Part shown: piece by piece, positions 1-64,000 of the stretch
Position numbering within the stretch: the first letter of the stretch is position 1
Layout of the letters: each line of letters starts with the position of its first letter
Origin: Aphelocoma coerulescens
Taxonomy: Eukaryota; Chordata; Aves; Passeriformes; Corvidae
Assembly (NCBI RefSeq): GCF_041296385.1
Contig: NC_091016.1
Span: 10,265,997-10,329,996, forward strand
Length of the DNA: 64,000 nt
Reading direction: 5' to 3'
Notes under the pieces: generated by a model
Told to the model about the DNA's origin: nothing
The model's database searches: none
Seen by the model: only the letters and a program-made list of their open reading frames with translations
Made by a program: the position numbers and the translations under genes

Positions 1-150
1 GCTGCTGCACTCCTGCCTGCTGAATTGACGTTCTAGCATTCGGAAGGAGGACGCTCAAGGGCACTTGCTTGTGCCGCTGCCTCTTCCTCTTCCAGCTCTA
101 GGTGGAAGTGATTGTGCTTCTTCTCAAGATTCTTGTGGAAACTCTTTTGT
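1..150 (+). repeat. 3' tail of CpG-rich module copy M8, ending in a splice-acceptor-like site
   Basis: This continues the module that starts near 9950 of the preceding unit. It aligns with 8120-8245 in the same unit. A pyrimidine-rich stretch ends in AG at 94-95, at the place where copies at 6253 and 8203 also have an acceptor-like AG. The matching donor of the other two copies is not present here. Confidence 0.7.
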
Positions 151-1190
151 TGAACTTTGGAGTGCAAAATCCTGGGAACTGAATGTTACATTCCATCTAG
201 AACGAAAGTTTTATTCCTCAGTTTTTGTCAGGAACAGCTAGAATGGAAAACACATCTTGGCTTTTTGCATTCCCTTCAGAGAATATTAACACTACGCAAA
301 TCGATGCCACGATCTATTCTGTCACCTAAATTTACTGTTTCAATCATGCACTCATACGCTGCTCGTCTGAAATTTTCTGTCCAGATTCATTTGACCTCAC
401 GCATCTTCTGTTTTGCAGTACCAACAAGTCTTGCTACAGAAAGACATGCTAGATCAGCAGCAGTGTTTAGGTAGGCCTTTGGTACGGCAGTATCTGAACA
501 GCACGCAACTCATACCTCAGCAATTCTCCCTGTGGCTCTGCTATGCGTGCTCTCGCATTTTTTCTCTCTCACTGAGCCTAAACTGTAGAACAAAAACATC
601 CAGGAACTGCTGCCATGGGAATGCACAAAGACCAAAATCCCAGAGGTGGCCTGTACATTTCCTTTGCAGCCCCTGAACCATATCAAACGCACTGCTGGTC
701 TGTACTTTTCTTTCCAGTGACACATCACATTCAGTCGAGCGGATACTGCAGACAAACCGAATCACTTCCAGCTAGCGAGCTCCAATACGAAAATGTGGCC
801 GCACAGGAAGCTTTCACTGGCCTTGCATGGTACAGTTGCAAACTTGCACTATGACTGCAGTCAAATGGTACTCAGGGCTTTTACATTGCGTCTGTACACT
901 GCACACACCCGACGGTGTTCTGTGCCTTCACTGTCAGTTTGGCTACCATCAAGTACTTTCATGTTCCCAAGGTGCCTATTTGGCACAAAGAAAAAGATAC
1001 CAGCCTTGCTGGACTGCGACTTCTTCTGCCAGTCTTTCACGTACACACTTCTCACTGGGGCTATGCACCTTTCTTCTAAGCTGTGTGGAAAGTCACATTC
1101 TTTACACTCACAGATGCCAGTTTCCATCCTTAAAAGAGCCCGCAGCTCTGCCCATGCAAGCAGTCTGAGAACCGAAGCCCGCTGGCAGCA
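150..1190. other. Unassigned stretch, no gene recognised
   Basis: Moderately AT-rich sequence with no recognised protein domain, RNA gene or known mobile element. It contains the exon-like segment at 419-470 and a pyrimidine tract with AG at 716-717. A segment near 585-725 loosely resembles the degenerate repeats at 2680-3225. Open frames up to 166 codons occur on both strands but show no recognisable family and no codon signal. The same stretch recurs in every unit. Confidence 0.5.
419..470 (+). other. Candidate 52-nt internal exon (splice-site bounded)
   Basis: A pyrimidine-rich run ending in TTTTGCAG at 411-418 is preceded by a possible branch site (CTCAC) at a normal distance. Downstream a GT donor at 471 reads GTAGGC, a moderate match to consensus. 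The 52 nt between are open in one frame and translate to YQQVLLQKDMLDQQQCL plus one base, so phase 0 in and phase 1 out. The glutamine- and leucine-rich spacing would suit a coiled coil. It could be an exon fragment captured from a real gene or a chance arrangement. I do not recognise the parent gene. Identical copies lie at the same place in all seven units. Confidence 0.3.
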
Positions 1191-1620
1191 TTCAGCTTTG
1201 TCTCTTTTCAGAGCGTGTACTGCACACAGCACAGTATGCTGTGGGGGGTTTTCCTCCGTTATAAGTACAGTCATACTCTTTCTGTTCCACTAAGTCCACA
1301 TCATCCATCTACCTCTCGCTCAGGGAAAGGCAGTAGGAGAGAGAAAAGCAGTTGCTGCATTGGTCTTTCCGAGTCCATGATTTTCAACAAACCGCCGCAC
1401 TCTGGATGACAAGGGGGTGCAATGGGAGGGTCTGCTGTTCTTGCTCAAGCTGGCACTTTCATGAGCTAATGTTTGTGTAGGATGTTCACAAGTTAGTATC
1501 TGGACTCTGCGAGAGTGAAAGACAGCGCTGGGGAGCTCACATTGCCCTCTGAGTGTGGTGCAAATAAGAGTTTGTACCTGGAAGGGGGAGATCAGTGAAA
1601 TCTTTTTGTCCTGACACGGT
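1190..1620 (+). repeat. Diverged module copy M0
   Basis: 1190-1400 aligns base for base in many stretches with 5214-5420: the pyrimidine tract and CAG, the CTGCACRCAGC region, the TTTTCCTC run, ACAGTCAT, CTCTCGCTCAG and AGAGARAAGCA are in the same order and spacing. A weaker match follows at 1505-1575 with 5569-5660, around GGTGCAAATA. It is the most decayed copy of the module in the unit and lies alone, far from the others. Confidence 0.65.
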
Positions 1621-2290
1621 TGATTTGAGAGCAGTGGTGTTTTCAACTTGGCTCTGCACTTTGGGTGGTTTATAGCTAGGTGAGGGGCCTTTCCTTCTTT
1701 TGCAAGTCCCCCCTGCCATGCTGGGGTTGTTCTTCTGAGTGCTGACAGCGCGCAGGTTAAAGTTAACTGCTCCTCATGGCGCCCAGCACCATTCATGTGG
1801 CAATAGTTTGTTCCTTTGCGGATCCTGGCTCTTCGAATGTCTTTTGATTTCGTCCGGAAGACACTTCCATGTGGAGACAGCAACAGGTTGCTGAATGGGC
1901 ACCTTTTGTGACCAATATTTACACTTGATGAAATTAGTGCATCAGGATGGTGATAGGCAACCAATGACCACTCAATTAACACTTACAATATTACTAACTT
2001 AAGCGAAACGAGGTTTTGCAAATGGCAATCTCTCCTTTGTACTGATACAGCCCTAATTTAATTTTCTTCAATGCACCAGCCTCAAGCACGGTGCTCTGCA
2101 TGATTGCAAGTAAGAATTGCAAGATTGCAAGTAGGAACATTTAGTTGGAAAGGAAAGCTGATGGCACAGGTTCACATGGCGCTGTTTCTATTCTTCAAAG
2201 TGAATGTGAAACCCACTCTAACTTATTATCCAAATAGGAGAGCACCAGGGAATGCTCATACTTTAAAGGTAGCAGGGAAAAGAGCTCAGA
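1620..2290. other. Unassigned stretch with a long minus-strand open frame, no gene supported
   Basis: Nothing recognisable as a known element. The minus strand is open for 220 codons over 1320-1982, running across the M0 copy into this stretch. The predicted peptide is rich in S, R, K, P and C, has no domain I recognise, and lacks any upstream promoter or exon context. Short iterations of GATTGCAAGTA occur around 2101-2140. Confidence 0.4.
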
Positions 2291-2588
2291 AGCTTGGCTC
2301 TTGCATTCCCTCTCTAACAGTTCAACAGCTCTAGCCCAGAGAACTGCCTACTAGGAAGAGCCATTAAATTCACATGCTCTTCTATGTGCACTTTCCTCCT
2401 CAGCTTTAAGTACCATCATAATCCTTCAGTCTCACAGAGTCAGGATGCAAACAGAATTTTATCAGGGGCTGCTAAAGTCAGCAGGATGCAAATTTGTTCA
2501 ACAGCTTGGCTTTTTCATTCCTTCTCTAACAGTTCAACAGCTATAGCCCACAGAACTGCCCATGAGGAAAAGCCATTAATTCGCTGAG
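2291..2588 (+). repeat. Pair of about 86-bp direct repeats, 212 bp apart
   Basis: 2291-2376 and 2503-2588 share the order AGCTTGGCT, CTCTAACAGTTCAACAGCT, AGCCCA, AGAACTGCC, AGCCATTAA with scattered mismatches. The linker holds no recognised element. Confidence 0.75.
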
Positions 2589-2599
2589 AACACCCTACA

Positions 2600-3225
2600 T
2601 GCAGATCCAAAACTGCTTTCTTTGCCAAAGAGAGAAACTATGAGCCCATCTCAGAAGAACTGGGATCTCCTCCTCCAAAATAGAAAACATCCAGGAACTG
2701 CTCCCATCCAATGTGCCAGAACACTGTTACTGGACATTACCTGCCCTGGTGTCTAAATCAGCTGCACACCAAGGATGAGCATAGCTGCTTGTCTTGGCTT
2801 ACTGCCAAGAGTTCAGAAGACCACCTTTCAGAAGTGGAAACGACATGCCAAAATTGACTTTTTCAGGAGACTGCCTTGAAAATAGGGCGTAGCAACTCCA
2901 TACTTGTACAAATCAAGGCAGTGCTTCTACACCAAATATGCCAGGACAGAAAGTTGCTGCTGCCCTTTACCTCCACTAGGCAGCTTCTTATGTGCACCTG
3001 AAACACTGGGGCTAGGTGCTTTCCTTCCCATGGAAAAGCATTGTCATCCTCTCTGAGGAACTGGCGTGCTACCGCCAATATTGAATATATCTAAGAATTG
3101 CTCCTACACAAGAGGTGCCAGGAGAGAAATGTCTCAGTTGAGTTTACTTCCCCATGGGACCTTATCATCTGCTCCACCAACACTGGGATTCAGACCTTTG
3201 CATTCCAAGGAAAGGCATTATGAGT
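2600..3225 (+). repeat. Degenerate tandem repeats with a period near 175 bp
   Basis: Recurring landmarks are an ACACTGGG core followed about 20 bp later by TTCC-N-TGGAAAGGCAT-like sequence (3004 and 3179), and GTGCCAGRA blocks at about 2715 and 3115. The period between the clearest pair is about 174 bp. Divergence is high and ends are uncertain. Confidence 0.5.
2985..3215 (+). repeat. Left arm of a diverged inverted repeat flanking the pentamer block
   Basis: The sequence from the CACCTGAAACA core through CTTTCCTTCCCA and GTGCCAGGA to TTTGCATTCC matches, in order, the reverse complement of 4690-4905. Identity is patchy but the blocks are collinear. Confidence 0.6.
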
Positions 3226-3229
3226 CACT

Positions 3230-3385
3230 TGGCCTTGCGTTGCCTTCAGTACCATTGCCTGGTTTTTCCTAGCCTACCCTTGCTTTGCCTTCCTTGGCTA
3301 CGTCTCTCTTGCCTATGTCTCCCTTGCCCTGCCCTGCCCTGCCTATGATTTCCTTGCTTTGCCCTGCCTTGCCTTTTCTTCCATG
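3230..3385 (+). repeat. Degenerate (CCTTG)n pentamer tract
   Basis: Pyrimidine-biased repetition of CCTTG, GCCTT and CCCTG words, with the most regular stretch near 3325-3345. It ends abruptly at a short TTGCCT...AGGCAA hairpin where the motif changes strand. Confidence 0.85.
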
Positions 3386-3829
3386 CAGGCAAGGCAATGC
3401 AGTCAAAGCAAGTTTAGGCAATTCTAGTCAAGTCAAGGGAAAGTTAGGGAAAGCAAAGCAAGAGCAGTGAGCAGGCAGCAAAGTAGGGCCAATGAGTGCG
3501 AGGCAAGAGAAGGCCCAGAAGTTGTAGTTCGGAAGGCAGGGCATAGGAAGGTAAGTCCAGTGATGCAGAGGGCAGGCAAAGACAAGAAAGGCTAGGCAAG
3601 GAAAGGCCAGCCAAGAAAGGGGTAGGCAAATAAAAACAGGGAATGCTTACACAAAGCAATGTGAAGCAAGGAACAGCTAGGCAAGTCAAGGCAAGAACAC
3701 AGAAAGGTCAGTGGAGTAAGGCAAGCAAGGGAGAGATAGGAGAAGCAAGTTAAATCAAAGGAGAGGAAGACAAGACATGGAAGGCCAGGGAAGGAGGCAG
3801 TAGGCAGGGGCTGGTTATGAAAGGCAGTG
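3386..3829 (+). repeat. Degenerate (GGCAA)n pentamer tract, first part
   Basis: The same pentamer as at 3230-3385 but in reverse complement, so this strand is purine-rich. Words such as AGGCAAGG, GCAAGGAA and GGTAGGCAA recur with many variants. Open frames here are artefacts of the repeat. Confidence 0.85.
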
Positions 3830-3835
3830 CAAGGC

Positions 3836-4159
3836 TGTTGCTGTTGAGACGGTCACGACACACATACACTCTCTGCCCCGAGCAATGGCAAAAAACCACT
3901 TGTATTATTTATGCATCTTCTCTTATGCACTTTTTTAGCTACATGTGCATGGACTATTATTTTGCTATAATACAATACTATTGGTTGTCTATAGTGTACA
4001 CACATTCTTTGCTAAACATCAGCCAGTATCGTCCCTTTTGCAGCTGTTACAACTTCTTTCTGTTGTTTATCTTCTTGCTTCTGCAATTCTCACGGGTACA
4101 AAATGATTGTATCAACGGAAATGTCTGTGAGGCCTTCAGACCAGCTGTTGGTTCCCACA
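3836..4159 (-). mobile_element. Solo-LTR-like insertion, 324 bp, minus orientation (unit 1)
   Basis: An AT-rich island interrupts the purine-rich pentamer tract. Its ends read TG at 3836 and CA at 4158-4159, as LTR ends do, and the flanks CAAGGC (3830-3835) and AAAGGC (4160-4165) match at five of six bases, a plausible target duplication. Read on the minus strand it starts TGTGGG, has a CCAAT box at 3980-3984 and a TATA-like CATAAATAA about 70 bp downstream (3905-3913), the order expected of an LTR promoter. No internal retroviral genes remain. The pentamer flanks make a chance match of the duplication possible. I cannot name the family. Confidence 0.6.
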
Positions 4160-4680
4160 AAAGGCAAAGGAGTGGTAGACAAAAGAAGGCCAGGAATCTG
4201 TAGGCAAAGCAGGGATTGGGAGGGGTAGGCAAAGGAAAGCAAGGCCATGTTGGAAAGGGGCACAAATGTCAAGAAGGGCAAGGGTTATGCAAGGCAGTGC
4301 AAGGCAAGGGAAGGGTAGGCAGGCCAAGGCAAGACAAGAGCATGGAGGGGTGGTGCAGAAAAGGTGATGATCGGATGGATAGGCCAGTCAAAGGTGGGTA
4401 GGTGTGGGTAGACTAGGCGAGGGAAAGAGGGGTAGCAGGGCAAGGCAAGTGTTGGCTTTGCAAAGCAAGGCAAGAGAGACTTAGGCAAGGCCAAGAGAGT
4501 CATAGGAGAAGCAGGCAAGACAAGACCAGGAAACAAGGGGTAAGAAAGTCAAGGTGGGAGATTGGTGAACAAGGCCATGCAATGGAGACATAGGAAGGGC
4601 AAGGGAGGTACACAGAGGTGTCTGTAAGGCAATGCAAGGCTGGGCTCTGCATGGCAAGGGATGATCAGGTATGGCAATGC
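4160..4680 (+). repeat. Degenerate (GGCAA)n pentamer tract, second part
   Basis: Resumes the purine-rich tract after the LTR-like insertion in the same orientation, with GCAAGGCAAG and GGGTAGGCA words, and fades out near the right inverted arm. Confidence 0.85.
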
Positions 4681-4689
4681 CTTCATGTA

Positions 4690-4905
4690 CCCCACTGTTT
4701 CAGGAGAATATGAGAGGTGGCCCAGGGGTGGTCAAAGCCAGCAAGACCCATCTGTCCTGGCAGCTTTCCTCCGGGAGTAATCCTTGGTTGTATTGGATAT
4801 GGGACATGCAATCACCATTTTAGCCATAGACTCCTGGACAAGAATGAAAGTTCTTTTCCCTGGGAAGGAAAACACGTAGACCCATTGTTTCAGGTGCAGA
4901 TGAAA
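4690..4905 (-). repeat. Right arm of the diverged inverted repeat flanking the pentamer block
   Basis: The reverse complement reads CACCTGAAACA, then TTTTCCTTCCCAGGGAAAAG, then GCTGCCAGGACAG, then GGCATTGCC, parallel to 2985-3215. The two arms enclose the whole pentamer block and the LTR-like insertion. Confidence 0.6.
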
Positions 4906-4929
4906 GACAGAACAAGGAAGGACAAGGCA

Positions 4930-5794
4930 CTCGAAGAACGCCTTCTTTCTGGACGCGTCCTTCTGGGTGTGCTCAAGCTGCGTGGGCTCGGCAGCACTGA
5001 AGGTGTAAGAACCTGTTTCTGGCCAGGCAGTGTGCTGCAGTGCAAGGGCTGCGCCTTACTTTGTTGAAGCAGGCAGAGCATTCTCAGCTGAATCTGCTTG
5101 TTGAAGCAGCTCTGGGCTGGACATTTGCAAGTCGCTCCACTGAGCCCATGAAGCCGGTGCCCAGCTGCTTCGTTCTTCGCCTTCTGTGGTCCGGACAGGA
5201 CTGAAGCGCAGCGATGGCTTGGAGCTTTGCCGCTCTTCAGCGTGAACACTGCACGCAGCCACAGGCTGCTGTGCAGGGCTTTTCCTCAGCTCGACGTACA
5301 GTCATTCTCTTGCTGTTTCCCCGAGTCGAAAGTGTCCGTGTAGCTCTCTCGCTCAGCGAAAGGCGTCAGGAGAGAAACACTTGCTGGATGAGCTTTTCGC
5401 TGGCCAAGCCTTTCAACACAGCACCACCATTCGGGCAAAGGAGGAGGAGAAAGGAAAGAGCACCTTTTCGTCCCGGCACGTTCTTCTTTGCGAGACGCCT
5501 CTCCGCCTCTTCGCTCCCTGCAAGGCTGTAATGTGCGCGGTGGCACTTGGAAGCGAGAAGGCAGGTGCAGAGAGCACCGCGATCTGACGGCGCTGTGCCG
5601 GCTGGAAAGGAAAGAGGGCTGCCACTGGAATGCGGTGCAAATACAGGTTTGCACGCGTCGAGGGTAAGCGCCGGGTGAGCTTGCTGACCTAAAACCGTTC
5701 TCTGTGCCAGACACAGGCATTGAGAATCTTTCCGTTAAGAATCAGGCTGCCACGCAAACAGAACGTGGTGCTGCCTAGCGCTGCGAGGGAAAGT
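4930..5794 (+). repeat. Module copy M1 (CpG-rich)
   Basis: From the GCCTTCT...GACGCGTCC block onward it aligns with 8515-9220: the GGACTCTGCAAGG/GGCTCGGCAGCACTG region, GCATTCTC...GAATCTGCTTG, the GAGCTTTGCCGCT core, TTTTCCTCAGCTCGA and the AGAAACACTTGCTGGATGAG core are collinear. It holds the first 172-bp arm. CpG is frequent, in contrast to the first half of the unit. Confidence 0.7.
5069..5240 (+). repeat. Direct arm 1 of the 726-bp segment (unit 1)
   Basis: A 172-bp sequence repeated at 5795-5966 with four differences. The diagnostic bases in arm 1 are A5086, G5114, T5136 and C5145. Homologous crossover between the arms removes exactly 726 bp, the length difference between long and short units. 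Units 4 and 6 have the same four arm-1 bases. Confidence 0.93.
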
Positions 5795-5966
5795 GCAGGC
5801 AGAGCATTCTCGGCTGAATCTGCTTGTTGAAGCAGCTCTTGGCTGGACATTTGCAAGTCGCGCCACTGAGTCCATGAAGCCGGTGCCCAGCTGCTTCGTT
5901 CTTCGCCTTCTGTGGTCCGGACAGGACTGAAGCGCAGCGATGGCTTGGAGCTTTGCCGCTCTTCAG
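5795..5966 (+). repeat. Direct arm 2 of the 726-bp segment (unit 1)
   Basis: The second 172-bp copy, with G5812, T5840, G5862 and T5871 at the four diagnostic sites. All long units have this arm-2 state. Homology with arm 1 continues at lower identity beyond 5966, because both belong to module copies. Confidence 0.93.
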
Positions 5967-6180
5967 ATTGTTTACTGCAGGCATCTACATTTTTCTGTGC
6001 ACGGATTTTCCTCAGCTGGACATAGAATTATTTTCTTGCTGTTTTACAGTGTCCAGACCATCTGTGTAGCTCTCGGTCAGGGAAATGCGTCAAGAGAGAC
6101 GCCCTTGCTGGATGAGCTTTTTGCTGGCCAAGCCTTTCGACATCCCACCACAATTGGTCGAGGACGAGGAGAAAGGAGGG
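5795..6180 (+). repeat. Module copy M2
   Basis: It follows M1 as a second tandem module copy and is collinear with it up to the GAGGAGAAAGGA motif near 6175. There it stops at a junction of about 45 bp of unrelated sequence before M3. Confidence 0.75.
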
Positions 6181-6224
6181 GTAACAGGGTAATATCTCTA
6201 CAGTGCATCAGGTCATGTGAAATT

Positions 6225-6918
6225 TGTGCTGCTGCTGCCTAGTGCCCTTGCAGCTATCTGGGGAAGCAATTGCCCTTCCCTTCAGTCTCTGAGTTTCGGA
6301 GAACACGAATGCATGTAGGATGCAAGCGGAGGAGGGAAGTACAGAGTGCACCGGTGAGTTCGCTGTTGCTTACCTGGGGAGGGCGGAGGTGCAGCCCAGC
6401 ACTGGCTTTGACGTCTACGGCCGTTCTCCAGGAGAGTAGCTGCTGGAGGCTGCCAAGGGAGCTGCGAGCACGAAAGTATAGCGGGCGTCTGTCTTAGAAG
6501 AAAGGCGCAGAGCCGCACTGTGATGCGCCCTTTCAGGAGGCTGCTTGGAGAAAGGGTGCTTTAGGAGGGCCTTCTGCTTTGACGCCTGCTCCTGGCTGAG
6601 CTCTAGCTGCAGGGACTCTGCAAGGCTGAACGACTAGGAAAGTGCCTATCTCCACGCTGTGGGATGAAGTGCTACGGCTCCGCGTTCCCTTTTGGAGACG
6701 CGAGGACTCCCTCAGCCGGCTTGGCTTGTGAACGAGCCTGCTGGACTTCTGCAACTCGGTGCACTGCACCTGCAAGCCCGGTGCTCTGCGGCTTCATTTT
6801 TCGCCTCACGTTATCCGCACGGAAGGGAAGCCCAGCGAGGGCACTGAACTTTGCCGCTTTTGCTCGTGCATGCTGCACGCACCCTCGGTGTAGCGTGCAC
6901 GATTTCTTTCCACAGCTC
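6225..6918 (+). repeat. Module copy M3, 5' half
   Basis: It aligns with 8175-8868 at a constant offset of 1,950 bp at both ends, with high identity throughout (GCTGCTGCCT, GGAGGAGGGAAG, CACCGGTGAGT, GGAGGCTGCCAAGGGAGCTG, GACGCCTGCTCCTGGCTGAG). It breaks off at CAGCTC where the AT-rich insertion begins, and the remainder of the module resumes at 7631. Confidence 0.88.
6254..6353 (+). other. Candidate exon in module copy M3
   Basis: An acceptor-like AG lies at 6252-6253 after a pyrimidine-containing run, and a perfect-consensus donor GTGAGT at 6354. The same pair bounds 8204-8301 in the copy 1,950 bp downstream although the two have diverged elsewhere. The segment has no convincing coding frame, so an exon of a non-coding RNA fits better than a coding exon. 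No transcript evidence is available here. Confidence 0.3.
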
Positions 6919-7630
6919 TATAGGAGAAAGGCTCGCGAAGGGTGTCTGGACTTCAGGCGGCTCTCTTGAAAGCTGTGTATTGCATAGGCGAAGTTACAGC
7001 ATTTCAGGGAGTGGGTATCCAGAGCCAGCCCTACAGCTGTCAGCTACAGCTGGTAGGCATACCTGGAGCCGCTTTCTGTTCAAGTTAGAAAGCATTATGT
7101 ATTTTTCTTTGCTGAGTATCTCAATACATAGCAACCAATAAGCACCATACAACAATACCTTTACATTTGCCTGTAGCCTATCATGACTACTACCATTACC
7201 ATATTATAGTCATTCTTATCCAATCACAAGAGTAAGTATGTTACAATTTAAGCTTACAGTGGAAAATTCTCAGACCTCTCTTCTTCTTGCTACATCGACA
7301 TTTCTTGTTTGCCTGCGATAGCTCTCTTTTTGGTAAAAACATGTTTTCTATTTCCTTATGGCCTTCTTGAGACTTATTTACTTGGTGAAAAACATGTGCT
7401 TGTTTGTACTCACATACCGGTGTCCTAATAAAAAACATCTCCTTCCAACTCAATCTCCAACCTTTGCCTTCTCAGTTATTCAGTGATCAGTGTTTCAGCA
7501 AAACACCTTTTACTCTCTATCAAAACTCGTTTCCATTTCTACCTCATGCTAAGTTTCTACATTCAGAGATCTTTCTGTCAAGCCTACATAGCTGTGAAAC
7601 TTTCTTACCAAACTTTCATCCTCTCCAACA
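6919..7630. mobile_element. AT-rich insertion of about 712 bp splitting a module (unit 1)
   Basis: M3 stops at 6918 in CAGCTC and the expected continuation (AGCTCGAGCTAC) appears at 7631. Removing 6919-7630 restores a 1,238-bp spacing to the next copy, matching the module period of about 1,233 bp. AGCTC flanks both sides and may be a target duplication. The inside is AT-rich with few CpG, has CCAAT boxes at 7135-7139 and 7220-7224 and an AATAAA at 7427-7432, an arrangement compatible with an old LTR. Ends are not resolved and no family is recognised. Confidence 0.55.
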
Positions 7631-8174
7631 AGCTCGAGCTACAAGGACACCCTTTCAGTTTCGCTGAGTCCACGCTGCCCACGTAGCTGTCGCTGAGCGA
7701 AGTGTGCCAGGGGAGAAGCACTTGCTGGAAGAGTCTTTCAATGCGCACGGCTTTGAAGGCAGCACCACAATGTGGGCCACGAGAAGGGGTGAGGAGGAAT
7801 GTGGTGTCGTCCTGGCACCTTTCTCCTGTGTGAGCTGTCTACCGAAGCTCTTTGCTCCTTGCGAGACGGCAGCGTGCGCCGGAGTACACTCGAGCCGAGG
7901 AGCGGGCAGACAGCATCGCCATCTGACGGGCGCTTTGCAGCTTGCCGCAGAAAGCGCTGCACTGCCGGGCACAGTGTTCCGGGCGAGAAGCAGAAGACCG
8001 TCCGCCTCCGGGGGAACGAAGGTACGGCGTGCTCGAAAAGGCGAAGAACGAAGCCGCGGAGCGCCGGGCTCACGTGCTCGTTGTACGGGCTGCAAGACGA
8101 GCGTGGCTGCCACTCTCCTGCCTGCTGAATTGACGTTATAGCCTTGGGAAGGAGGAAGTTCCACGGCACTTTCC
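7631..8174 (+). repeat. Module copy M4 (3' half, continuing M3)
   Basis: 7631-7985 aligns with 8864-9220 at an offset of 1,233-1,235 bp, including CACCCTTTC-GTTTCGCTGAG, GGGGAGAAGCACTTGCTGGA, TTGAAGGCAGCACC and CTACCGAAGCTCTTTGCTCC. 7975-8174 aligns with 9960-10104 plus the first bases of the next unit. The plus strand is open for 145 codons at 7704-8141 and several other frames are open too, as expected of GC-rich non-coding DNA. Confidence 0.88.
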
Positions 8175-8203
8175 TGTGCTGCTGCTGCCTATTCCTCTTG
8201 TAG

Positions 8204-8301
8204 CTCTCTGTGGAAGCATTTGCGCTTCCCTTCAGTCTCCGTCTTTCCGAGAACACGATGGTAGTAGCATGCAGCGGAGGAGGGAAGAACAGAGCGCACC
8301 G
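8204..8301 (+). other. Candidate exon in module copy M5
   Basis: A TTCCTCTTGTAG acceptor ends at 8203 and a GTGAGTCT donor starts at 8302. Acceptor position is conserved in M3 (6253) and M8 (95 of the next unit), and the donor is conserved in M3. Unit 2 has T to A at 17550, about 30 bp upstream, without touching either site. Confidence 0.33.
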
Positions 8302-8841
8302 GTGAGTCTGGTGCCGCTTACGTGCGGAAGGCGAAGGTGCAGCCCAGCCCTGGCTTCTACTTCTCGGGCCGTTCTCCAGGAAAGCAGCTGCTGGAGGCTG
8401 CCAAGGGAGCTGCGAGAGTGAAAGCAAGGTGGGCGTCTGTCTTAGAAGAAAGGCACAGAGCCACAGTGTCATTTGCGATTTCCGAAGGCTGGTTGGAGAG
8501 GCGTGCTTTAGGAAAGCCTTCTGCTTTGACGCCTGCTCCTGGCTGAGCTCTAGTTGCAGGGACTCTGCAAGGCTGAACAACTAGGAAAGTGCCTATGTCC
8601 ACGCTGTGGGATGAAGCACTATAGCTGCGGCTTCCTTTCTGGAGCAAGCAAGAATGCTCTCAGCCGACTCTGCTTGTGAACGAGCCCTTGCTGGTCTTGG
8701 GCAATTTGGTGCACTGCACACGCAAGCCCAGTGCTCTGCAGCTAAATTGTTTGCCTTAAGTGGTCTGGACTGAAGAGAAGGCCAGCGATGGCAGTGAACT
8801 TTGCTGCTTTTCCGCGTGCATGCTGCACCCACCAACGGTGC

Positions 8842-8853
8842 ACCGTGCACGGT
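8842..8853. other. 12-bp perfect palindrome in the module
   Basis: ACCGTGCACGGT is its own reverse complement and sits just before the TTTCTTTGCTCAG run of M5. Related GTGCAC words occur at the same place in M3 and M6 but without the full palindrome. A protein-binding role is only a possibility. Confidence 0.35.
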
Positions 8854-9299
8854 TTCTTTGCTCAGCTCGAGCTACAGCGACACCCTTTCGGTTTCGCTGA
8901 GTCCACGCTGCCCATGCAGCTCTCACTCAGCGAAGTGCGCCAGGGGAGAAGCACTTGCTGGAGAAGTCTTTCAATGTGCAAGGCTTTGAAGGCAGCACCC
9001 CAATCGGGACATGAGGAGGGCTGATGAAGAACGTGGTTCTTTCTTGGCAACTTTCTCCTGTGCGAGATGTCTACCGAAGCTCTTTGCTCCTTGCCAGACT
9101 GCAGTGTGCACCAGAGTACACTCTGGCCGAGAAGGAGAAGGCAGACAGCACCACCATCTGACGGGCCCTATGCAGGTTATGACAGAAAGCAGACTGCCCC
9201 TGGAAGGCACTGGCAGCTACGAGTTCCCCAAGTGTCAGGGGCAAATGCTGGGCGAGCTCGTCATCCTGGCACGGTTCTCTGTGCGAGAGCGACTTCTCA

Positions 9300-9600
9300 G
9301 CGGTCCTTCTCGTGGCCCCGATTGCGCTGCTGTGTTTTCAAAGTCCTGCACACTGAAAGACTCATCCAGCAAGTGCTTCTCCCCTTCAAGTTTCGCTGAG
9401 CGAGAGCTACCATGGGTAGTGTGGACGCCGCGAAACCGAAGGGGTCTCCCGCTAGCTCGAGCTGCGGAAAAACCGTGCACAGCACACTGACAAGCGGCAA
9501 AGCACAATGGCCTCGCTCGGCTTCTCTTCTGCCCAGACAACGAAAGGCGAAGAACGAAGCCTCAGAGCACCGGGCTTGTGCGTGCAGCATTGCAGAAAGC
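9300..9600 (-). repeat. Inverted module copy M6
   Basis: The reverse complement reads, in module order, CAAGCCCGGTGCTCTG, CTTCGTTCTTCGCC, GTGCTTTGCCGCTT, GTGCACGGTTTTTCCGCAGC, CCTTCGGTTTCGC, GGGGAGAAGCACTTGCTGGA and GGCCACGAGAAGG. It lies between the direct copies M5 and M7, so an internal inversion or inverted insertion broke the tandem order. Confidence 0.82.
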
Positions 9601-9850
9601 GCAGAGACGCCTATCGGGAATTTCGGTCCTTGCGAGAGAGTCTTGTGTGCCTCGTGGTGCTTCGAGCCGAGAAAGACCGGGCAGACAGCACCGCCACAGA
9701 GGGGGCGCTTTTGCACCTTGTAAAAGGCAAGAGGACTGCTCCTGGAAGGTGGTGCGAATCCCTGTTGCCACTAGTGTCAGGAGCAAAGTGCTTGCAAGCT
9801 TATTGTCCTGGCACAGCTCTCTGCGGGAGACGTAGCCGAGAAGCTTTCCG
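9600..9850 (+). repeat. Module fragment M7
   Basis: Direct orientation again. GCAGACAGCACC at 9681 matches 9141 at an offset of 540 bp, followed by collinear GGACTGCTCCTGGAAGG and TTGTCCTGGCAC blocks. It is missing the module core, which is represented by the inverted M6 beside it. Confidence 0.75.
9694..9708 (+). promoter_or_regulatory. CTCF-like core (weak) in M7
   Basis: The 3' nine bases AGGGGGCGC match the strongest part of the vertebrate CTCF consensus, with CCAC four bases upstream but one base out of register. The aligned position in other module copies reads TGACGGGCGC, so the match is specific to M7. It recurs at 19072, 29177, 39281, 48659 and 58763. CTCF binding is known for the human DXZ4 and D4Z4 macrosatellites, which is why I list it. 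Confidence 0.22.
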
Positions 9851-9949
9851 CTTAGCTTGGGATCGCAAGAGGGACAGATTGTGCTGCTACGTAGCGCTGG
9901 GAAGGAGAGGTGCAGGGCCCAGGCGTGTTTGGGCAGAAGCAGTGCACTG

Positions 9950-10104
9950 GAGCGCTTGGCTGCCGACACAGCGTTCCGTGCGAGAAGCAGACCGCTGTTC
10001 GCCTCCGGGAGAATGAAGGTACGGCGTGCTCGAAAAGGCGAAGGACGAAGCCGCAGAGCACCGGGCTGGTGTGCGCGTCGTATGGGCTTGCAAGACGAAG
10101 GGTG
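9950..10104 (+). repeat. Module fragment M8, continuing into the next unit
   Basis: It aligns with 7965-8120 (GAGAAGCAGA, GGTACGGCGTGCTCGAAAAG, GGCTTGCAAGACGA, CTCCTGCCTGCTGAATTGAC) and carries on without a break across the arbitrary unit boundary to about base 130 of the following unit. Confidence 0.85.
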
Positions 10105-53749: not shown

Positions 53750-54137
53750 CTTCATGTACCCCACTGTTTCAGGAGAATATGAGAGGTGGCCCAGGGGTGG
53801 TCAAAGCCAGCAAGACCCATCTGTCCTGGCAGCTTTCCTCCGGGAGTAATCCTTGGTTGTATTGGATATGGGACATGCAATCACCATTTTAGCCATAGAC
53901 TCCTGGACAAGAATGAAAGTTCTTTTCCCTGGGAAGGAAAACACGTAGACCCACTGTTTCAGGTGCAGATGAAAGACAGAACAAGGAAGGACAAGGCACT
54001 CGAAGAACGCCTTCTTTCTGGACGCGTCCTTCTGGGTGTGCTCAAGCTGCGTGGGCTCGGCAGCACTGAAGGTGTAAGAACCTGTTTCTGGCCAGGCAGT
54101 GTGCTGCAGTGCAAGGGCTGCGCCTTACTTTGTTGAA

Positions 54138-54309
54138 GCAGGCAGAGCATTCTCAGCTGAATCTGCTTGTTGAAGCAGCTCTGGGCTGGACATTTGCAAG
54201 TCGCTCCACTGAGCCCATGAAGCCGGTGCCCAGCTGCTTCGTTCTTCGCCTTCTGTGGTCCGGACAGGACTGAAGCGCAGCGATGGCTTGGAGCTTTGCC
54301 GCTCTTCAG
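54138..54309 (+). repeat. Arm 1 of unit 6
   Basis: Carries the unit 1 arm-1 states at all four sites. Arm 2 lies at 54864-55035. Confidence 0.9.
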
Positions 54310-55987
54310 CGTGAACACTGCACGCAGCCACAGGCTGCTGTGCAGGGCTTTTCCTCAGCTCGACGTACAGTCATTCTCTTGCTGTTTCCCCGAGTCGAAA
54401 GTGTCCGTGTAGCTCTCTCGCTCAGCGAAAGGCGTCAGGAGAGAAACACTTGCTGGATGAGCTTTTCGCTGGCCAAGCCTTTCAACACAGCACCACCATT
54501 CGGGCAAAGGAGGAGGAGAAAGGAAAGAGCACCTTTTCGTCCCGGCACGTTCTTCTTTGCGAGACGCCTCTCCGCCTCTTCGCTCCCTGCAAGGCTGTAA
54601 TGTGCGCGGTGGCACTTGGAAGCGAGAAGGCAGGTGCAGAGAGCACCGCGATCTGACGGCGCTGTGCCGGCTGGAAAGGAAAGAGGGCTGCCACTGGAAT
54701 GCGGTGCAAATACAGGTTTGCACGCGTCGAGGGTAAGCGCCGGGTGAGCTTGCTGACCTAAAACCGTTCTCTGTGCCAGACACAGGCATTGAGAATCTTT
54801 CCGTTAAGAATCAGGCTGCCACGCAAACAGAACGTGGTGCTGCCTAGCGCTGCGAGGGAAAGTGCAGGCAGAGCATTCTCGGCTGAATCTGCTTGTTGAA
54901 GCAGCTCTTGGCTGGACATTTGCAAGTCGCGCCACTGAGTCCATGAAGCCGGTGCCCAGCTGCTTCGTTCTTCGCCTTCTGTGGTCCGGACAGGACTGAA
55001 GCGCAGCGATGGCTTGGAGCTTTGCCGCTCTTCAGATTGTTTACTGCAGGCATCTACATTTTTCTGTGCACGGATTTTCCTCAGCTGGACATAGAATTAT
55101 TTTCTTGCTGTTTTACAGTGTCCAGACCATCTGTGTAGCTCTCGGTCAGGGAAATGCGTCAAGAGAGACGCCCTTGCTGGATGAGCTTTTTGCTGGCCAA
55201 GCCTTTCGACATCCCACCACAATTGGTCGAGGACGAGGAGAAAGGAGGGGTAACAGGGTAATATCTCTACAGTGCATCAGGTCATGTGAAATTTGTGCTG
55301 CTGCTGCCTAGTGCCCTTGCAGCTATCTGGGGAAGCAATTGCCCTTCCCTTCAGTCTCTGAGTTTCGGAGAACACGAATGCATGTAGGATGCAAGCGGAG
55401 GAGGGAAGTACAGAGTGCACCGGTGAGTTCGCTGTTGCTTACCTGGGGAGGGCGGAGGTGCAGCCCAGCACTGGCTTTGACGTCTACGGCCGTTCTCCAG
55501 GAGAGTAGCTGCTGGAGGCTGCCAAGGGAGCTGCGAGCACGAAAGTATAGCGGGCGTCTGTCTTAGAAGAAAGGCGCAGAGCCGCACTGTGATGCGCCCT
55601 TTCAGGAGGCTGCTTGGAGAAAGGGTGCTTTAGGAGGGCCTTCTGCTTTGACGCCTGCTCCTGGCTGAGCTCTAGCTGCAGGGACTCTGCAAGGCTGAAC
55701 GACTAGGAAAGTGCCTATCTCCACGCTGTGGGATGAAGTGCTACGGCTCCGCGTTCCCTTTTGGAGACGCGAGGACTCCCTCAGCCGGCTTGGCTTGTGA
55801 ACGAGCCTGCTGGACTTCTGCAACTCGGTGCACTGCACCTGCAAGCCCGGTGCTCTGCGGCTTCATTTTTCGCCTCACGTTATCCGCACGGAAGGGAAGC
55901 CCAGCGAGGGCACTGAACTTTGCCGCTTTTGCTCGTGCATGCTGCACGCACCCTCGGTGTAGCGTGCACGATTTCTTTCCACAGCTC

Positions 55988-56699
55988 TATAGGAGAAAGG
56001 CTCGCGAAGGGTGTCTGGACTTCAGGCGGCTCTCTTGAAAGCTGTGTATTGCATAGGCGAAGTTACAGCATTTCAGGGAGTGGGTATCCAGAGCCAGCCC
56101 TACAGCTGTCAGCTACAGCTGGTAGGCATACCTGGAGCCGCTTTCTGTTCAAGTTAGAAAGCATTATGTATTTTTCTTTGCTGAGTATCTCAATACATAG
56201 CAACCAATAAGCACCATACAACAATACCTTTACATTTGCCTGTAGCCTATCATGACTACTACCATTACCATATTATAGTCATTCTTATCCAATCACAAGA
56301 GTAAGTATGTTACAATTTAAGCTTACAGTGGAAAATTCTCAGACCTCTCTTCTTCTTGCTACATCGACATTTCTTGTTTGCCTGCGATAGCTCTCTTTTT
56401 GGTAAAAACATGTTTTCTATTTCCTTATGGCCTTCTTGAGACTTATTTACTTGGTGAAAAACATGTGCTTGTTTGTACTCACATACCGGTGTCCTAATAA
56501 AAAACATCTCCTTCCAACTCAATCTCCAACCTTTGCCTTCTCAGTTATTCAGTGATCAGTGTTTCAGCAAAACACCTTTTACTCTCTGTCAAAACTCGTT
56601 TCCATTTCTACCTCATGCTAAGTTTCTACATTCAGAGATCTTTCTGTCAAGCCTACATAGCTGTGAAACTTTCTTACCAAACTTTCATCCTCTCCAACA
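55988..56699. mobile_element. AT-rich insertion in the module, unit 6
   Basis: Same junctions as in unit 1. Carries G56588, shared only with unit 4. Confidence 0.55.
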
Positions 56700-59600
56700 A
56701 GCTCGAGCTACAAGGACACCCTTTCAGTTTCGCTGAGTCCACGCTGCCCACGTAGCTGTCGCTGAGCGAAGTGTGCCAGGGGAGAAGCACTTGCTGGAAG
56801 AGTCTTTCAATGCGCACGGCTTTGAAGGCAGCACCACAATGTGGGCCACGAGAAGGGGTGAGGAGGAATGTGGTGTCGTCCTGGCACCTTTCTCCTGTGT
56901 GAGCTGTCTACCGAAGCTCTTTGCTCCTTGCGAGACGGCAGCGTGCGCCGGAGTACACTCGAGCCGAGGAGCGGGCAGACAGCATCGCCATCTGACGGGC
57001 GCTTTGCAGCTTGCCGCAGAAAGCGCTGCACTGCCGGGCACAGTGTTCCGGGCGAGAAGCAGAAGACCGTCCGCCTCCGGGGGAACGAAGGTACGGCGTG
57101 CTCGAAAAGGCGAAGAACGAAGCCGCGGAGCGCCGGGCTCGCGTGCTCGTTGTACGGGCTGCAAGACGAGCGTGGCTGCCACTCTCCTGCCTGCTGAATT
57201 GACGTTATAGCCTTGGGAAGGAGGAAGTTCCACGGCACTTTCCTGTGCTGCTGCTGCCTATTCCTCTTGTAGCTCTCTGTGGAAGCATTTGCGCTTCCCT
57301 TCAGTCTCCGTCTTTCCGAGAACACGATGGTAGTAGCATGCAGCGGAGGAGGGAAGAACAGAGCGCACCGGTGAGTCTGGTGCCGCTTACGTGCGGAAGG
57401 CGAAGGTGCAGCCCAGCCCTGGCTTCTACTTCTCGGGCCGTTCTCCAGGAAAGCAGCTGCTGGAGGCTGCCAAGGGAGCTGCGAGAGTGAAAGCAAGGTG
57501 GGCGTCTGTCTTAGAAGAAAGGCACAGAGCCACAGTGTCATTTGCGATTTCCGAAGGCTGGTTGGAGAGGCGTGCTTTAGGAAAGCCTTCTGCTTTGACG
57601 CCTGCTCCTGGCTGAGCTCTAGTTGCAGGGACTCTGCAAGGCTGAACAACTAGGAAAGTGCCTATGTCCACGCTGTGGGATGAAGCACTATAGCTGCGGC
57701 TTCCTTTCTGGAGCAAGCAAGAATGCTCTCAGCCGACTCTGCTTGTGAACGAGCCCTTGCTGGTCTTGGGCAATTTGGTGCACTGCACACGCAAGCCCAG
57801 TGCTCTGCAGCTAAATTGTTTGCCTTAAGTGGTCTGGACTGAAGAGAAGGCCAGCGATGGCAGTGAACTTTGCTGCTTTTCCGCGTGCATGCTGCACCCA
57901 CCAACGGTGCACCGTGCACGGTTTCTTTGCTCAGCTCGAGCTACAGCGACACCCTTTCGGTTTCGCTGAGTCCACGCTGCCCATGCAGCTCTCACTCAGC
58001 GAAGTGCGCCAGGGGAGAAGCACTTGCTGGAGAAGTCTTTCAATGTGCAAGGCTTTGAAGGCAGCACCCCAATCGGGACATGAGGAGGGCTGATGAAGAA
58101 CGTGGTTCTTTCTTGGCAACTTTCTCCTGTGCGAGATGTCTACCGAAGCTCTTTGCTCCTTGCCAGACTGCAGTGTGCACCAGAGTACACTCTGGCCGAG
58201 AAGGAGAAGGCAGACAGCACCACCATCTGACGGGCCCTATGCAGGTTATGACAGAAAGCAGACTGCCCCTGGAAGGCACTGGCAGCTACGAGTTCCCCAA
58301 GTGTCAGGGGCAAATGCTGGGCGAGCTCGTCATCCTGGCACGGTTCTCTGTGCGAGAGCGACTTCTCAGCGGTCCTTCTCGTGGCCCCGATTGCGCTGCT
58401 GTGTTTTCAAAGTCCTGCACACTGAAAGACTCATCCAGCAAGTGCTTCTCCCCTTCAAGTTTCGCTGAGCGAGAGCTACCATGGGTAGTGTGGACGCCGC
58501 GAAACCGAAGGGGTCTCCCGCTAGCTCGAGCTGCGGAAAAACCGTGCACAGCACACTGACAAGCGGCAAAGCACAATGGCCTCGCTCGGCTTCTCTTCTG
58601 CCCAGACAACGAAAGGCGAAGAACGAAGCCTCAGAGCACCGGGCTTGTGCGTGCAGCATTGCAGAAAGCGCAGAGACGCCTATCGGGAATTTCGGTCCTT
58701 GCGAGAGAGTCTTGTGTGCCTCGTGGTGCTTCGAGCCGAGAAAGACCGGGCAGACAGCACCGCCACAGAGGGGGCGCTTTTGCACCTTGTAAAAGGCAAG
58801 AGGACTGCTCCTGGAAGGTGGTGCGAATCCCTGTTGCCACTAGTGTCAGGAGCAAAGTGCTTGCAAGCTTATTGTCCTGGCACAGCTCTCTGCGGGAGAC
58901 GTAGCCGAGAAGCTTTCCGCTTAGCTTGGGATCGCAAGAGGGACAGATTGTGCTGCTACGTAGCGCTGGGAAGGAGAGGTGCAGGGCCCAGGCGTGTTTG
59001 GGCAGAAGCAGTGCACTGGAGCGCTTGGCTGCCGACACAGCGTTCCGTGCGAGAAGCAGACCGCTGTTCGCCTCCGGGAGAATGAAGGTACGGCGTGCTC
59101 GAAAAGGCGAAGGACGAAGCCGCAGAGCACCGGGCTGGTGTGCGCGTCGTATGGGCTTGCAAGACGAAGGGTGGCTGCTGCACTCCTGCCTGCTGAATTG
59201 ACGTTCTAGCATTCGGAAGGAGGACGCTCAAGGGCACTTGCTTGTGCCGCTGCCTCTTCCTCTTCCAGCTCTAGGTGGAAGTGATTGTGCTTCTTCTCAA
59301 GATTCTTGTGGAAACTCTTTTGTTGAACTTTGGAGTGCAAAATCCTGGGAACTGAATGTTACATTCCATCTAGAACGAAAGTTTTATTCCTCAGTTTTTG
59401 TCAGGAACAGCTAGAATGGAAAACACATCTTGGCTTTTTGCATTCCCTTCAGAGAATATTAACACTACGCAAATCGATGCCACGATCTATTCTGTCACCT
59501 AAATTTACTGTTTCAATCATGCACTCATACGCTGCTCGTCTGAAATTTTCTGTCCAGATTCATTTGACCTCACGCATCTTCTGTTTTGCAGTACCAACAA

Positions 59601-62402
59601 GTCTTGCTACAGAAAGACATGCTAGATCAGCAGCAGTGTTTAGGTAGGCCTTTGGTACGGCAGTATCTGAACAGCACGCAACTCATACCTCAGCAATTCT
59701 CCCTGTGGCTCTGCTATGCGTGCTCTCGCATTTTTTCTCTCTCACTGAGCCTAAACTGTAGAACAAAAACATCCAGGAACTGCTGCCATGGGAATGCACA
59801 AAGACCAAAATCCCAGAGGTGGCCTGTACATTTCCTTTGCAGCCCCTGAACCATATCAAACGCACTGCTGGTCTGTACTTTTCTTTCCAGTGACACATCA
59901 CATTCAGTCGAGCGGATACTGCAGACAAACCGAATCACTTCCAGCTAGCGAGCTCCAATACGAAAATGTGGCCGCACAGGAAGCTTTCACTGGCCTTGCA
60001 TGGTACAGTTGCAAACTTGCACTATGACTGCAGTCAAATGGTACTCAGGGCTTTTACATTGCGTCTGTACACTGCACACACCCGACGGTGTTCTGTGCCT
60101 TCACTGTCAGTTTGGCTACCATCAAGTACTTTCATGTTCCCAAGGTGCCTATTTGGCACAAAGAAAAAGATACCAGCCTTGCTGGACTGCGACTTCTTCT
60201 GCCAGTCTTTCACGTACACACTTCTCACTGGGGCTATGCACCTTTCTTCTAAGCTGTGTGGAAAGTCACATTCTTTACACTCACAGATGCCAGTTTCCAT
60301 CCTTAAAAGAGCCCGCAGCTCTGCCCATGCAAGCAGTCTGAGAACCGAAGCCCGCTGGCAGCATTCAGCTTTGTCTCTTTTCAGAGCGTGTACTGCACAC
60401 AGCACAGTATGCTGTGGGGGGTTTTCCTCCGTTATAAGTACAGTCATACTCTTTCTGTTCCACTAAGTCCACATCATCCATCTACCTCTCGCTCAGGGAA
60501 AGGCAGTAGGAGAGAGAAAAGCAGTTGCTGCATTGGTCTTTCCGAGTCCATGATTTTCAACAAACCGCCGCACTCTGGATGACAAGGGGGTGCAATGGGA
60601 GGGTCTGCTGTTCTTGCTCAAGCTGGCACTTTCATGAGCTAATGTTTGTGTAGGATGTTCACAAGTTAGTATCTGGACTCTGCGAGAGTGAAAGACAGCG
60701 CTGGGGAGCTCACATTGCCCTCTGAGTGTGGTGCAAATAAGAGTTTGTACCTGGAAGGGGGAGATCAGTGAAATCTTTTTGTCCTGACACGGTTGATTTG
60801 AGAGCAGTGGTGTTTTCAACTTGGCTCTGCACTTTGGGTGGTTTATAGCTAGGTGAGGGGCCTTTCCTTCTTTTGCAAGTCCCCCCTGCCATGCTGGGGT
60901 TGTTCTTCTGAGTGCTGACAGCGCGCAGGTTAAAGTTAACTGCTCCTCATGGCGCCCAGCACCATTCATGTGGCAATAGTTTGTTCCTTTGCGGATCCTG
61001 GCTCTTCGAATGTCTTTTGATTTCGTCCGGAAGACACTTCCATGTGGAGACAGCAACAGGTTGCTGAATGGGCACCTTTTGTGACCAATATTTACACTTG
61101 ATGAAATTAGTGCATCAGGATGGTGATAGGCAACCAATGACCACTCAATTAACACTTACAATATTACTAACTTAAGCGAAACGAGGTTTTGCAAATGGCA
61201 ATCTCTCCTTTGTACTGATACAGCCCTAATTTAATTTTCTTCAATGCACCAGCCTCAAGCACGGTGCTCTGCATGATTGCAAGTAAGAATTGCAAGATTG
61301 CAAGTAGGAACATTTAGTTGGAAAGGAAAGCTGATGGCACAGGTTCACATGACGCTGTTTCTATTCTTCAAAGTGAATGTGAAACCCACTCTAACTTATT
61401 ATCCAAATAGGAGAGCACCAGGGAATGCTCATACTTTAAAGGTAGCAGGGAAAAGAGCTCAGAAGCTTGGCTCTTGCATTCCCTCTCTAACAGTTCAACA
61501 GCTCTAGCCCAGAGAACTGCCTACTAGGAAGAGCCATTAAATTCACATGCTCTTCTATGTGCACTTTCCTCCTCAGCTTTAAGTACCATCATAATCCTTC
61601 AGTCTCACAGAGTCAGGATGCAAACAGAATTTTATCAGGGGCTGCTAAAGTCAGCAGGATGCAAATTTGTTCAACAGCTTGGCTTTTTCATTCCTTCTCT
61701 AACAGTTCAACAGCTATAGCCCACAGAACTGCCCATGAGGAAAAGCCATTAATTCGCTGAGAACACCCTACATGCAGATCCAAAACTGCTTTCTTTGCCA
61801 AAGAGAGAAACTATGAGCCCATCTCAGAAGAACTGGGATCTCCTCCTCCAAAATAGAAAACATCCAGGAACTGCTCCCATCCAATGTGCCAGAACACTGT
61901 TACTGGACATTACCTGCCCTGGTGTCTAAATCAGCTGCACACCAAGGATGAGCATAGCTGCTTGTCTTGGCTTACTGCCAAGAGTTCAGAAGACCACCTT
62001 TCAGAAGTGGAAACGACATGCCAAAATTGACTTTTTCAGGAGACTGCCTTGAAAATAGGGCGTAGCAACTCCATACTTGTACAAATCAAGGCAGTGCTTC
62101 TACACCAAATATGCCAGGACAGAAAGTTGCTGCTGCCCTTTACCTCCACTAGGCAGCTTCTTATGTGCACCTGAAACACTGGGGCTAGGTGCTTTCCTTC
62201 CCATGGAAAAGCATTGTCATCCTCTCTGAGGAACTGGCGTGCTACTGCCAATATTGAATATATCTAAGAATTGCTCCTACACAAGAGGTGCCAGGAGAGA
62301 AATGTCTCAGTTGAGTTTACTTCCCCATGGGACCTTATCATCTGCTCCACCAACACTGGGATTCAGACCTTTGCATTCCAAGGAAAGGCATTATGAGTCA
62401 CT

Positions 62403-63853
62403 TGGCCTTGCGTTGCCTTCAGTACCATTGCCTGGTTTTTCCTAGCCTACCCTTGCTTTGCCTTCCTTGGCTACGTCTCTCTTGCCTATGTCTCCCTTGC
62501 CCTGCCCTGCCCTGCCTATGATTTCCTTGCTTTGCCCTGCCTTGCCTTTTCTTCCATGCAGGCAAGGCAATGCAGTCAAAGCAAGTTTAGGCAATTCTAG
62601 TCAAGTCAAGGGAAAGTTAGGGAAAGCAAAGCAAGAGCAGTGAGCAGGCAGCAAAGTAGGGCCAATGAGTGCGAGGCAAGAGAAGGCCCAGAAGTTGTAG
62701 TTCGGAAGGCAGGGCATAGGAAGGTAAGTCCAGTGATGCAGAGGGCAGGCAAAGACAAGAAAGGCTAGGCAAGGAAAGGCCAGCCAAGAAAGGGGTAGGC
62801 AAATAAAAACAGGGAATGCTTACACAAAGCAATGTGAAGCAAGGAACAGCTAGGCAAGTCAAGGCAAGAACACAGAAAGGTCAGTGGAGTAAGGCAAGCA
62901 AGGGAGAGATAGGAGAAGCAAGTTAAATCAAAGGAGAGGAAGACAAGACATGGAAGGCCAGGGAAGGAGGCAGTAGGCAGGGGCTGGTTATGAAAGGCAG
63001 TGCAAGGCTGTTGCTGTTGAGACGGTCACGACACACATACACTCTCTGCCCCGAGCAATGGCAAAAAACCACTTGTATTATTTATGCATCTTCTCTTATG
63101 CACTTTTTTAGCTACATGTGCATGGACTATTATTTTGCTATAATACAATACTATTGGTTGTCTATAGTGTACACACATTCTTTGCTAAACATCAGCCAGT
63201 ATCGTCCCTTTTGCAGCTGTTACAACTTCTTTCTGTTGTTTATCTTCTTGCTTCTGCAATTCTCACGGGTACAAAATGATTGTATCAACGGAAATGTCTG
63301 TGAGGCCTTCAGACCAGCTGTTGGTTCCCACAAAAGGCAAAGGAGTGGTAGACAAAAGAAGGCCAGGAATCTGTAGGCAAAGCAGGGATTGGGAGGGGTA
63401 GGCAAAGGAAAGCAAGGCCATGTTGGAAAGGGGCACAAATGTCAAGAAGGGCAAGGGTTATGCAAGGCAGTGCAAGGCAAGGGAAGGGTAGGCAGGCCAA
63501 GGCAAGACAAGAGCATGGAGGGGTGGTGCAGAAAAGGTGATGATCGGATGGATAGGCCAGTCAAAGGTGGGTAGGTGTGGGTAGACTAGGCGAGGGAAAG
63601 AGGGGTAGCAGGGCAAGGCAAGTGTTGGCTTTGCAAAGCAAGGCAAGAGAGACTTAGGCAAGGCCAAGAGAGTCATAGGAGAAGCAGGCAAGACAAGACC
63701 AGGAAACAAGGGGTAAGAAAGTCAAGGTGGGAGATTGGTGAACAAGGCCATGCAATGGAGACATAGGAAGGGCAAGGGAGGTACACAGAGGTGTCTGTAA
63801 GGCAATGCAAGGCTGGGCTCTGCATGGCAAGGGATGATCAGGTATGGCAATGC
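62403..63853 (+). repeat. Pentamer block with LTR-like insertion, unit 7
   Basis: Strand switch near 62558. The block is complete before the window ends. Confidence 0.85.
63009..63332 (-). mobile_element. Solo-LTR-like insertion, unit 7
   Basis: Same site, orientation and flanking hexamers as in unit 1. Confidence 0.6.
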
Positions 63854-64000
63854 CTTCATGTACCCCACTGTTTCAGGAGAATATGAGAGGTGGCCCAGGG
63901 GTGGTCAAAGCCAGCAAGACCCATCTGTCCTGGCAGCTTTCCTCCGGGAGTAATCCTTGGTTGTATTGGATATGGGACATGCAATCACCATTTTAGCCAT

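Follow-up and report, generated by a model that had tools for sequence, protein, structure and literature searches.

Large-unit tandem repeats have been described in crow and chicken. CrowSat1 is a 14-kb satellite of the hooded crow that is suspected to be a major component of heterochromatin (PMC6115840), and large tandem arrays are reported in crow (Weissensteiner et al., 2017, as cited in PMC7341801). The chicken Z chromosome satellite consists of ~22-kb units that extend over 9 Mb (PMC4992247). The HINT1W satellite of the chicken W chromosome has a 5,648-bp unit, is present in 52 copies and contains a complete gene (PMC9974502). Here we describe an array of 10-kb units in Aphelocoma coerulescens (Corvidae), found in a 64,000-nucleotide stretch of contig NC_091016.1 (NCBI RefSeq assembly GCF_041296385.1, positions 10,265,997 to 10,329,996 of the forward strand). 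This whole stretch is termed the window, and positions are numbered from its first letter. It is likely that the window is part of a long, non-coding and probably methylated macrosatellite array, in which unequal exchange and gene conversion maintain the similarity of the units.

A single head-to-tail array spans the 64-kb window, and its six complete units and one partial unit all have the same orientation. Unit borders were placed by BLAST, with the first unit as query and the window as subject, and the phase of the unit is arbitrary. On the + strand, the units are U1 (1-10104), U2 (10105-19482), U3 (19483-29587), U4 (29588-39691), U5 (39692-49069), U6 (49070-59173) and the partial U7 (59174-64000). 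Two length classes are present. Type A comprises U1, U4 and U6, each of 10104 bp, and U3, which is 10105 bp long owing to a 1-bp insertion; type B comprises U2 and U5, both 9378 bp long and without 726 bp found in type A. The order of complete units is A-B-A-A-B-A. U7 consists of the first 4827 bp of a unit and is identical to the matching part of U5; it is not assigned to a length class because the window stops short of the diagnostic stretch. A k-mer offset count over the whole window gives dominant steps of 10104, 9378 and 10105. An earlier note, made by reading the letters of this DNA, had listed successive steps of 10104, 9378, 10105, 10104, 9378 and 10104 bp, and k-mer offsets together with BLAST reproduce these exactly. 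The note also held that the array fills the window; this is borne out, as only 418 distinct 24-mers are present once, and there is therefore no flank on either side.

Apart from the 726-bp length difference, the units vary at 26 substitution sites and by one 1-bp insertion. The six complete units form 15 pairs that differ by 2-13 substitutions (0.02-0.13%, with a mean of 0.095% per site). The two to five substitutions between type A units that had been counted by eye in the earlier note are found in three of the six pairs, those within U1, U4 and U6 (2, 5 and 5, the 2 being between U4 and U6). The count does not stand for the three pairs that U3 forms with these units, where 12 substitutions are found in two pairs, U3-U6 among them, and 13 in the other. 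The conclusion drawn there, that the array reflects recent amplification or strong homogenization, is supported, and particular exchange events are visible in the units. An A-B-A higher-order repeat was considered and rejected: U1-U4, U2-U5 and U3-U6 show 5, 10 and 12 differences, against 2 for U4-U6.

One trace of exchange is in U3. At three consecutive sites, 5114, 5136 and 5145, which distinguish the two copies of a direct repeat internal to the unit, copy 1 of U3 holds the base of copy 2, and the converted sites are bounded by the unconverted sites 5086 and 5241. Judged from the pattern of bases, this tract is a gene conversion whose length is 32 bp or more but below 155 bp. U5 carries, at sites 7684 and 7689, the base of the internal paralogous position 1233 bp downstream. 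In all, 11 of the 26 substitution sites fall in stretches with a mapped internal paralogue. The private allele equals the paralogue base at six of these (5114, 5136, 5145, 5812, 7684 and 7689), differs from it at two (6297 and 8072) and matches neither way at one (8172). At the remaining two (6122 and 9080), the alleles are split 3:3 and one of them is the paralogue base. The six matching sites are clustered and therefore represent perhaps three events, and site 5812 may be a plain CpG mutation.

Larger blocks also appear to have been copied. U4 together with the first 4827 bp of U5 shows 2 differences in 14,931 bp when compared with U6 and U7, while U1 with part of U2 shows 8 differences from either of these stretches. 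A variant at 7519 is exclusive to U4 and U6, and a variant at 3073 is exclusive to U5 and U7. The simplest reading of these comparisons is that units 4-5 and 6-7 reflect a recent duplication of a 19.5-kb dimer. At sites 6122, 9080 and 9601, U1, U4 and U6 share one allele and U2, U3 and U5 share the other; thus, two unit haplotypes are interleaved along the array.

The type B unit points to an exchange of another kind. The direct repeat referred to above is 346 bp long, with copy 1 at 5069-5414 and copy 2 at 5795-6138 of U1, both on the + strand; copy 2 lies 726 bp downstream of copy 1 and the two are 87% identical. The 726 bp absent from type B are exactly one period, from copy 1 to copy 2, so that a single recombination between the copies removes one period. 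As the copies are 13% diverged, against ~0.1% between units, the duplication within the unit is probably old, and type B would be a derived, deleted form of the unit.

The two type B units are not identical at the junction. In U2, the sequence changes from copy 1 to copy 2 within the 27 identical bases between the paralogue-specific sites 5086 and 5114, and the switch in U5 precedes site 5086. Either there were two independent deletions, or there was one deletion and a later change at a single CpG site. That the type B units have separate origins, U2 and U5 each stemming from its own recombination and the 346-bp pair acting as a recurrent deletion hotspot, is a tentative and somewhat doubtful proposal, and it is a variant of the explanation favored here rather than an exclusive rival. 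In its favor, the switch points differ, with U2 having the copy-1 base and U5 the copy-2 base at 5086. However, only one site differs, by a G-to-A change in CpG context, which a single subsequent point mutation or conversion would explain. In addition, U2 and U5 have common alleles at 6122, 9080 and 9601, though type A unit U3 has these too.

The unit itself displays an older level of repetition. From ~4.9 kb onward it is mostly G+C- and CpG-rich, and the other half is less so. The G+C-rich part contains copies of an old subunit, termed S, for which a 776-position profile was seeded from 4936-5711 and 8512-9288. A search of the unit and 1.2 kb of the next unit gave 14 profile matches, two of them in that extension, and the eight larger pieces sum to 3651 bp. 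The two seeds are full copies on the + strand with 68% identity to each other. Partial copies are found at 5795-6184, at 9604-9830 (+ strand, profile positions 552-776) and, inverted on the - strand, at 9291-9600; a strongly diverged partial copy on the + strand (1138-1621) lies in the A+T-richer half. A further copy on the + strand is split between 6565-6921 and 7629-7958, within a longer old repeat at 6225-7955 (+ strand) that matches 8175-9190. With an insert between the two parts set aside, these longer repeats are 81-90% identical in seven aligned blocks of at least 58 bp, and two short blocks of 15 and 41 bp have 73 and 78% identity. S belongs to a longer repeat whose copies are spaced about 1.2 kb apart once the insert is removed (a 0.8-1.2-kb repeat overall). 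With diverged S pieces in its G+C-rich half, the 10-kb unit is a second-level repeat that consists in part of decayed first-level repeats.

The insert that splits the S copy is A+T-rich (712 bp, 39.9% GC), is located at 6919-7630 on the + strand and is found at the same place in other units. It is flanked by a 5-bp direct repeat, AGCTC, and the paralogue has an empty site. The two ends of the insert, TATAGGAG and CTCCAACA, form an imperfect inverted repeat, and the insert contains CCAAT and AATAAA. We take this combination of target-site duplication, inverted ends, CCAAT and AATAAA to resemble a solo long terminal repeat (LTR) of an endogenous retrovirus. The termini are TA...CA, whereas TG...CA is expected for a solo LTR. 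The insert appears to be solo-LTR-like, and it would be older than the amplification of the 10-kb unit.

Several other features were noted in the unit. In the A+T-richer half, a low-complexity stretch of CCTTGCC/GGCAAGG on the + strand occupies 3240-4680, with limits set by eye, and short inverted repeats are found beside it, near 2939-3050 and 4690-4901. At 2904-3219 there are short direct repeats with a distance of 177 bp, and inverted relatives of these lie beyond the GGCAAGG-rich stretch at 4690-4901. This looks like an older repeat present in both orientations around a low-complexity core. The interval 4001-5000 has a GC skew of 0.27 and an AT skew of 0.19, i.e., a purine-rich + strand, and similar peaks are seen in later units. 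In the A+T-richer half, a 77-bp direct repeat is found at 2291-2367 and 2503-2579; its copies are 88% identical and 212 bp apart. Short tandem repeats were detected with periods of 15, 21, 22 and 30 and with 1.9-2.9 copies. A scan of unit 1 for patterns of the CENP-B box, telomeric repeats, CTCF sites, the chicken satellite sate-21, polyadenylation signals, TATA boxes and G-quadruplexes gave only two isolated TTAGGG, three AATAAA, one TATAAA and one G-quadruplex-like match.

An excess of CpG transitions is the expected mark of germline methylation. By a scripted count, 6 of the 26 substitutions are CpG transitions, and 6.85% of unit positions are in CpG (p 0.007); when seven possible conversion sites are dropped, the count is 5 of 19 (p 0.008). 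Site 6122, which is a 3:3 split in CpG context, is outside the scripted count. These counts suggest that the array is probably methylated.

The set of open reading frames was drawn from positions 1-10300 of the window and comprises 110 stop-free frames of at least 55 amino acids. A Pfam scan of these gave no convincing match, with 13 families at E <= 1. YqiJ_OB (E 0.0014), DUF5560 (0.0067) and Tmemb_14 (two open reading frames, best 0.0073) were rejected as chance matches among 110 scans, and the best value of 0.0014 becomes about 0.15 when corrected for 110 trials. The longest stop-to-stop open reading frame has 280 amino acids, and 13 of 200 dinucleotide shuffles have one as long or longer. 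Neither this frame nor one of 190 amino acids has a relative in about 5.8 billion proteins. A 220-amino-acid open reading frame on the minus strand (1323-1982) has a sole match in the same collection, an identical entry on a 1476-bp contig; from this it follows only that the stretch is probably present in another record far shorter than the window. The old internal copies carry many 1-2-bp insertions and deletions, and their differences are spread evenly over codon positions in four tested pairs (p 0.27-0.59), with counts of 6, 10 and 6 in a fifth pair; all of the pairs are from the G+C-rich half.

Structured RNAs were also searched for. Nothing reached the gathering score in an Rfam search over 1-32000, and below that score mir-743, SNORD66 and mir-74 were matched in 1-10300 (E 0.06-0.47). 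ARAGORN found no transfer RNA (tRNA) over 1-20000. An array of ribosomal DNA, small nuclear RNA, 5S or tRNA genes was rejected on these two results. Two 30-base patterns, searched for in viral contigs and in prokaryote genome contigs, respectively, were without a match; these collections are unsuited to a vertebrate satellite and the search may pass over records from the genome of the window, so that the result carries little weight. Taken together, the open reading frame, Pfam, protein, Rfam and codon-position results lead us to read the unit as apparently non-coding, with the proviso that these tests are blind to short exons and non-coding transcripts.

A history consistent with these observations can be proposed. 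A block of older, diverged 0.8-1.2-kb repeats that already carried the solo-LTR-like insertion would have been captured and amplified along with ~4.9 kb of other sequence. Misaligned units on sister chromatids or homologues would then undergo unequal exchange, by which blocks of one unit or several are duplicated or deleted, gene conversion would replace short tracts, and recombination between the internal 346-bp direct repeats would yield the 9.4-kb type B. The array probably resides in methylated heterochromatin, which would tolerate it, and its maintenance would require no product of its own. Several points weigh against this account. The CpG counts are low, the test on them was picked after the sites were known, and the units share history. 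The three Pfam matches are weak but not nil (E 0.0014, 0.0067 and 0.0073), and genes with short exons would escape a scan of open reading frames of at least 55 amino acids. The 280-amino-acid frame sits in the upper tail of the shuffles, though it has no protein relative. Finally, the near-identical pairs U4-U5 and U6-U7 are where a mis-assembly is hardest to spot.

This last point bears on the possibility that the assembler produced part or all of the tandem order by multiplying a smaller number of real copies. Near-identity of units is the situation where assemblers fail, and U4-U5 and U6-U7 are different at only 2 of 14,931 positions. Nevertheless, such an artefact is highly improbable. Private substitutions are present in all six complete units (3 in U1, 4 in U2, 1 in U4, 1 in U6 and more in U3 and U5), whereas simple copy-paste by an assembler would give identical units. 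The local conversion tract and private insertion of U3, and the two A-B-A trimers, with 5, 10 and 12 differences between their corresponding units, argue in the same direction.

A biological alternative is that the array is an ampliconic gene cluster or a cluster of long non-coding RNA genes, with each unit carrying a multi-exon or non-coding transcript for which selection favors many copies. Testis-expressed amplicons are described in pericentromeric heterochromatin of chicken dot chromosomes (PMC9974502), half of the unit is G+C- and CpG-rich, and one open reading frame, of 280 amino acids, is longish. Set against these are the 110 open reading frames without a convincing Pfam match (best E 0.0014), the even codon-position differences and many small insertions and deletions of the old internal copies, and the protein searches, where two of three frames have no relative and the third has only an identical entry. 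A protein-coding or RNA amplicon is thus unlikely, although a non-coding transcript would still fit these results. A more elaborate form of the proposal has only a slim chance of being correct: the unit would be an undescribed, lineage-specific ampliconic locus, e.g., on a sex, dot or germline-restricted chromosome, the G+C- and CpG-rich half would supply both the promoter and the body of a non-coding transcript that is under selection and probably expressed in testis, and the internal direct repeats would be a hotspot that repeatedly makes the short form.

Under the favored reading, of a non-coding macrosatellite homogenized by exchange and conversion, the array is ordinary in kind, a large and apparently non-coding satellite, and the details of its concerted evolution are unusually clear. 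Assemblies frequently collapse arrays as large as this one, but here consecutive units are resolved enough for single events to be seen: a conversion tract, a dimer duplication, and one or two deletions by internal recombination. Given the whole array, the step size and tract length of homogenization would become measurable.

A literature search gave no description that could be matched to the 10.1-kb unit, which does not show its absence from print. The array has the attributes of a macrosatellite, with kilobase units in uninterrupted head-to-tail order that are homogenized within the array. The chicken CNM 41-bp and 21-bp (sate-21) satellites were rejected as relatives: there is no 41-bp period, and TTTTC-N5-GAAAA is absent from unit 1. 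The human macrosatellites DXZ4 and D4Z4 also consist of tandem kilobase units, but these are about 3 kb. DXZ4 binds CTCF; a search of unit 1 limited to two simple CTCF consensus patterns gave no match. D4Z4 contains the gene DUX4, while the 13 Pfam families matched by the 110 open reading frames do not include a homeodomain. The HINT1W satellite differs in unit length and in carrying the gene HINT1W, where no gene is recognized here; no match to the HIT family is among the 13 Pfam families for the 110 open reading frames, in which short exons could be missed. The HINT1W satellite is nevertheless similar in having a kilobase unit that is G+C-rich (53.6%) and in being on a chromosome with hypermethylated tandem arrays (PMC9974502). 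The chicken Z satellite, by its description, has a unit more than twofold different from the 10104/10105 and 9378 bp found here, and like the present array it combines a very large unit with a long array. The 14-kb unit of crowSat1, also compared by its description, differs from the 10.1/9.4 kb of the A. coerulescens units; like the window array, crowSat1 is a kilobase-sized tandem satellite.
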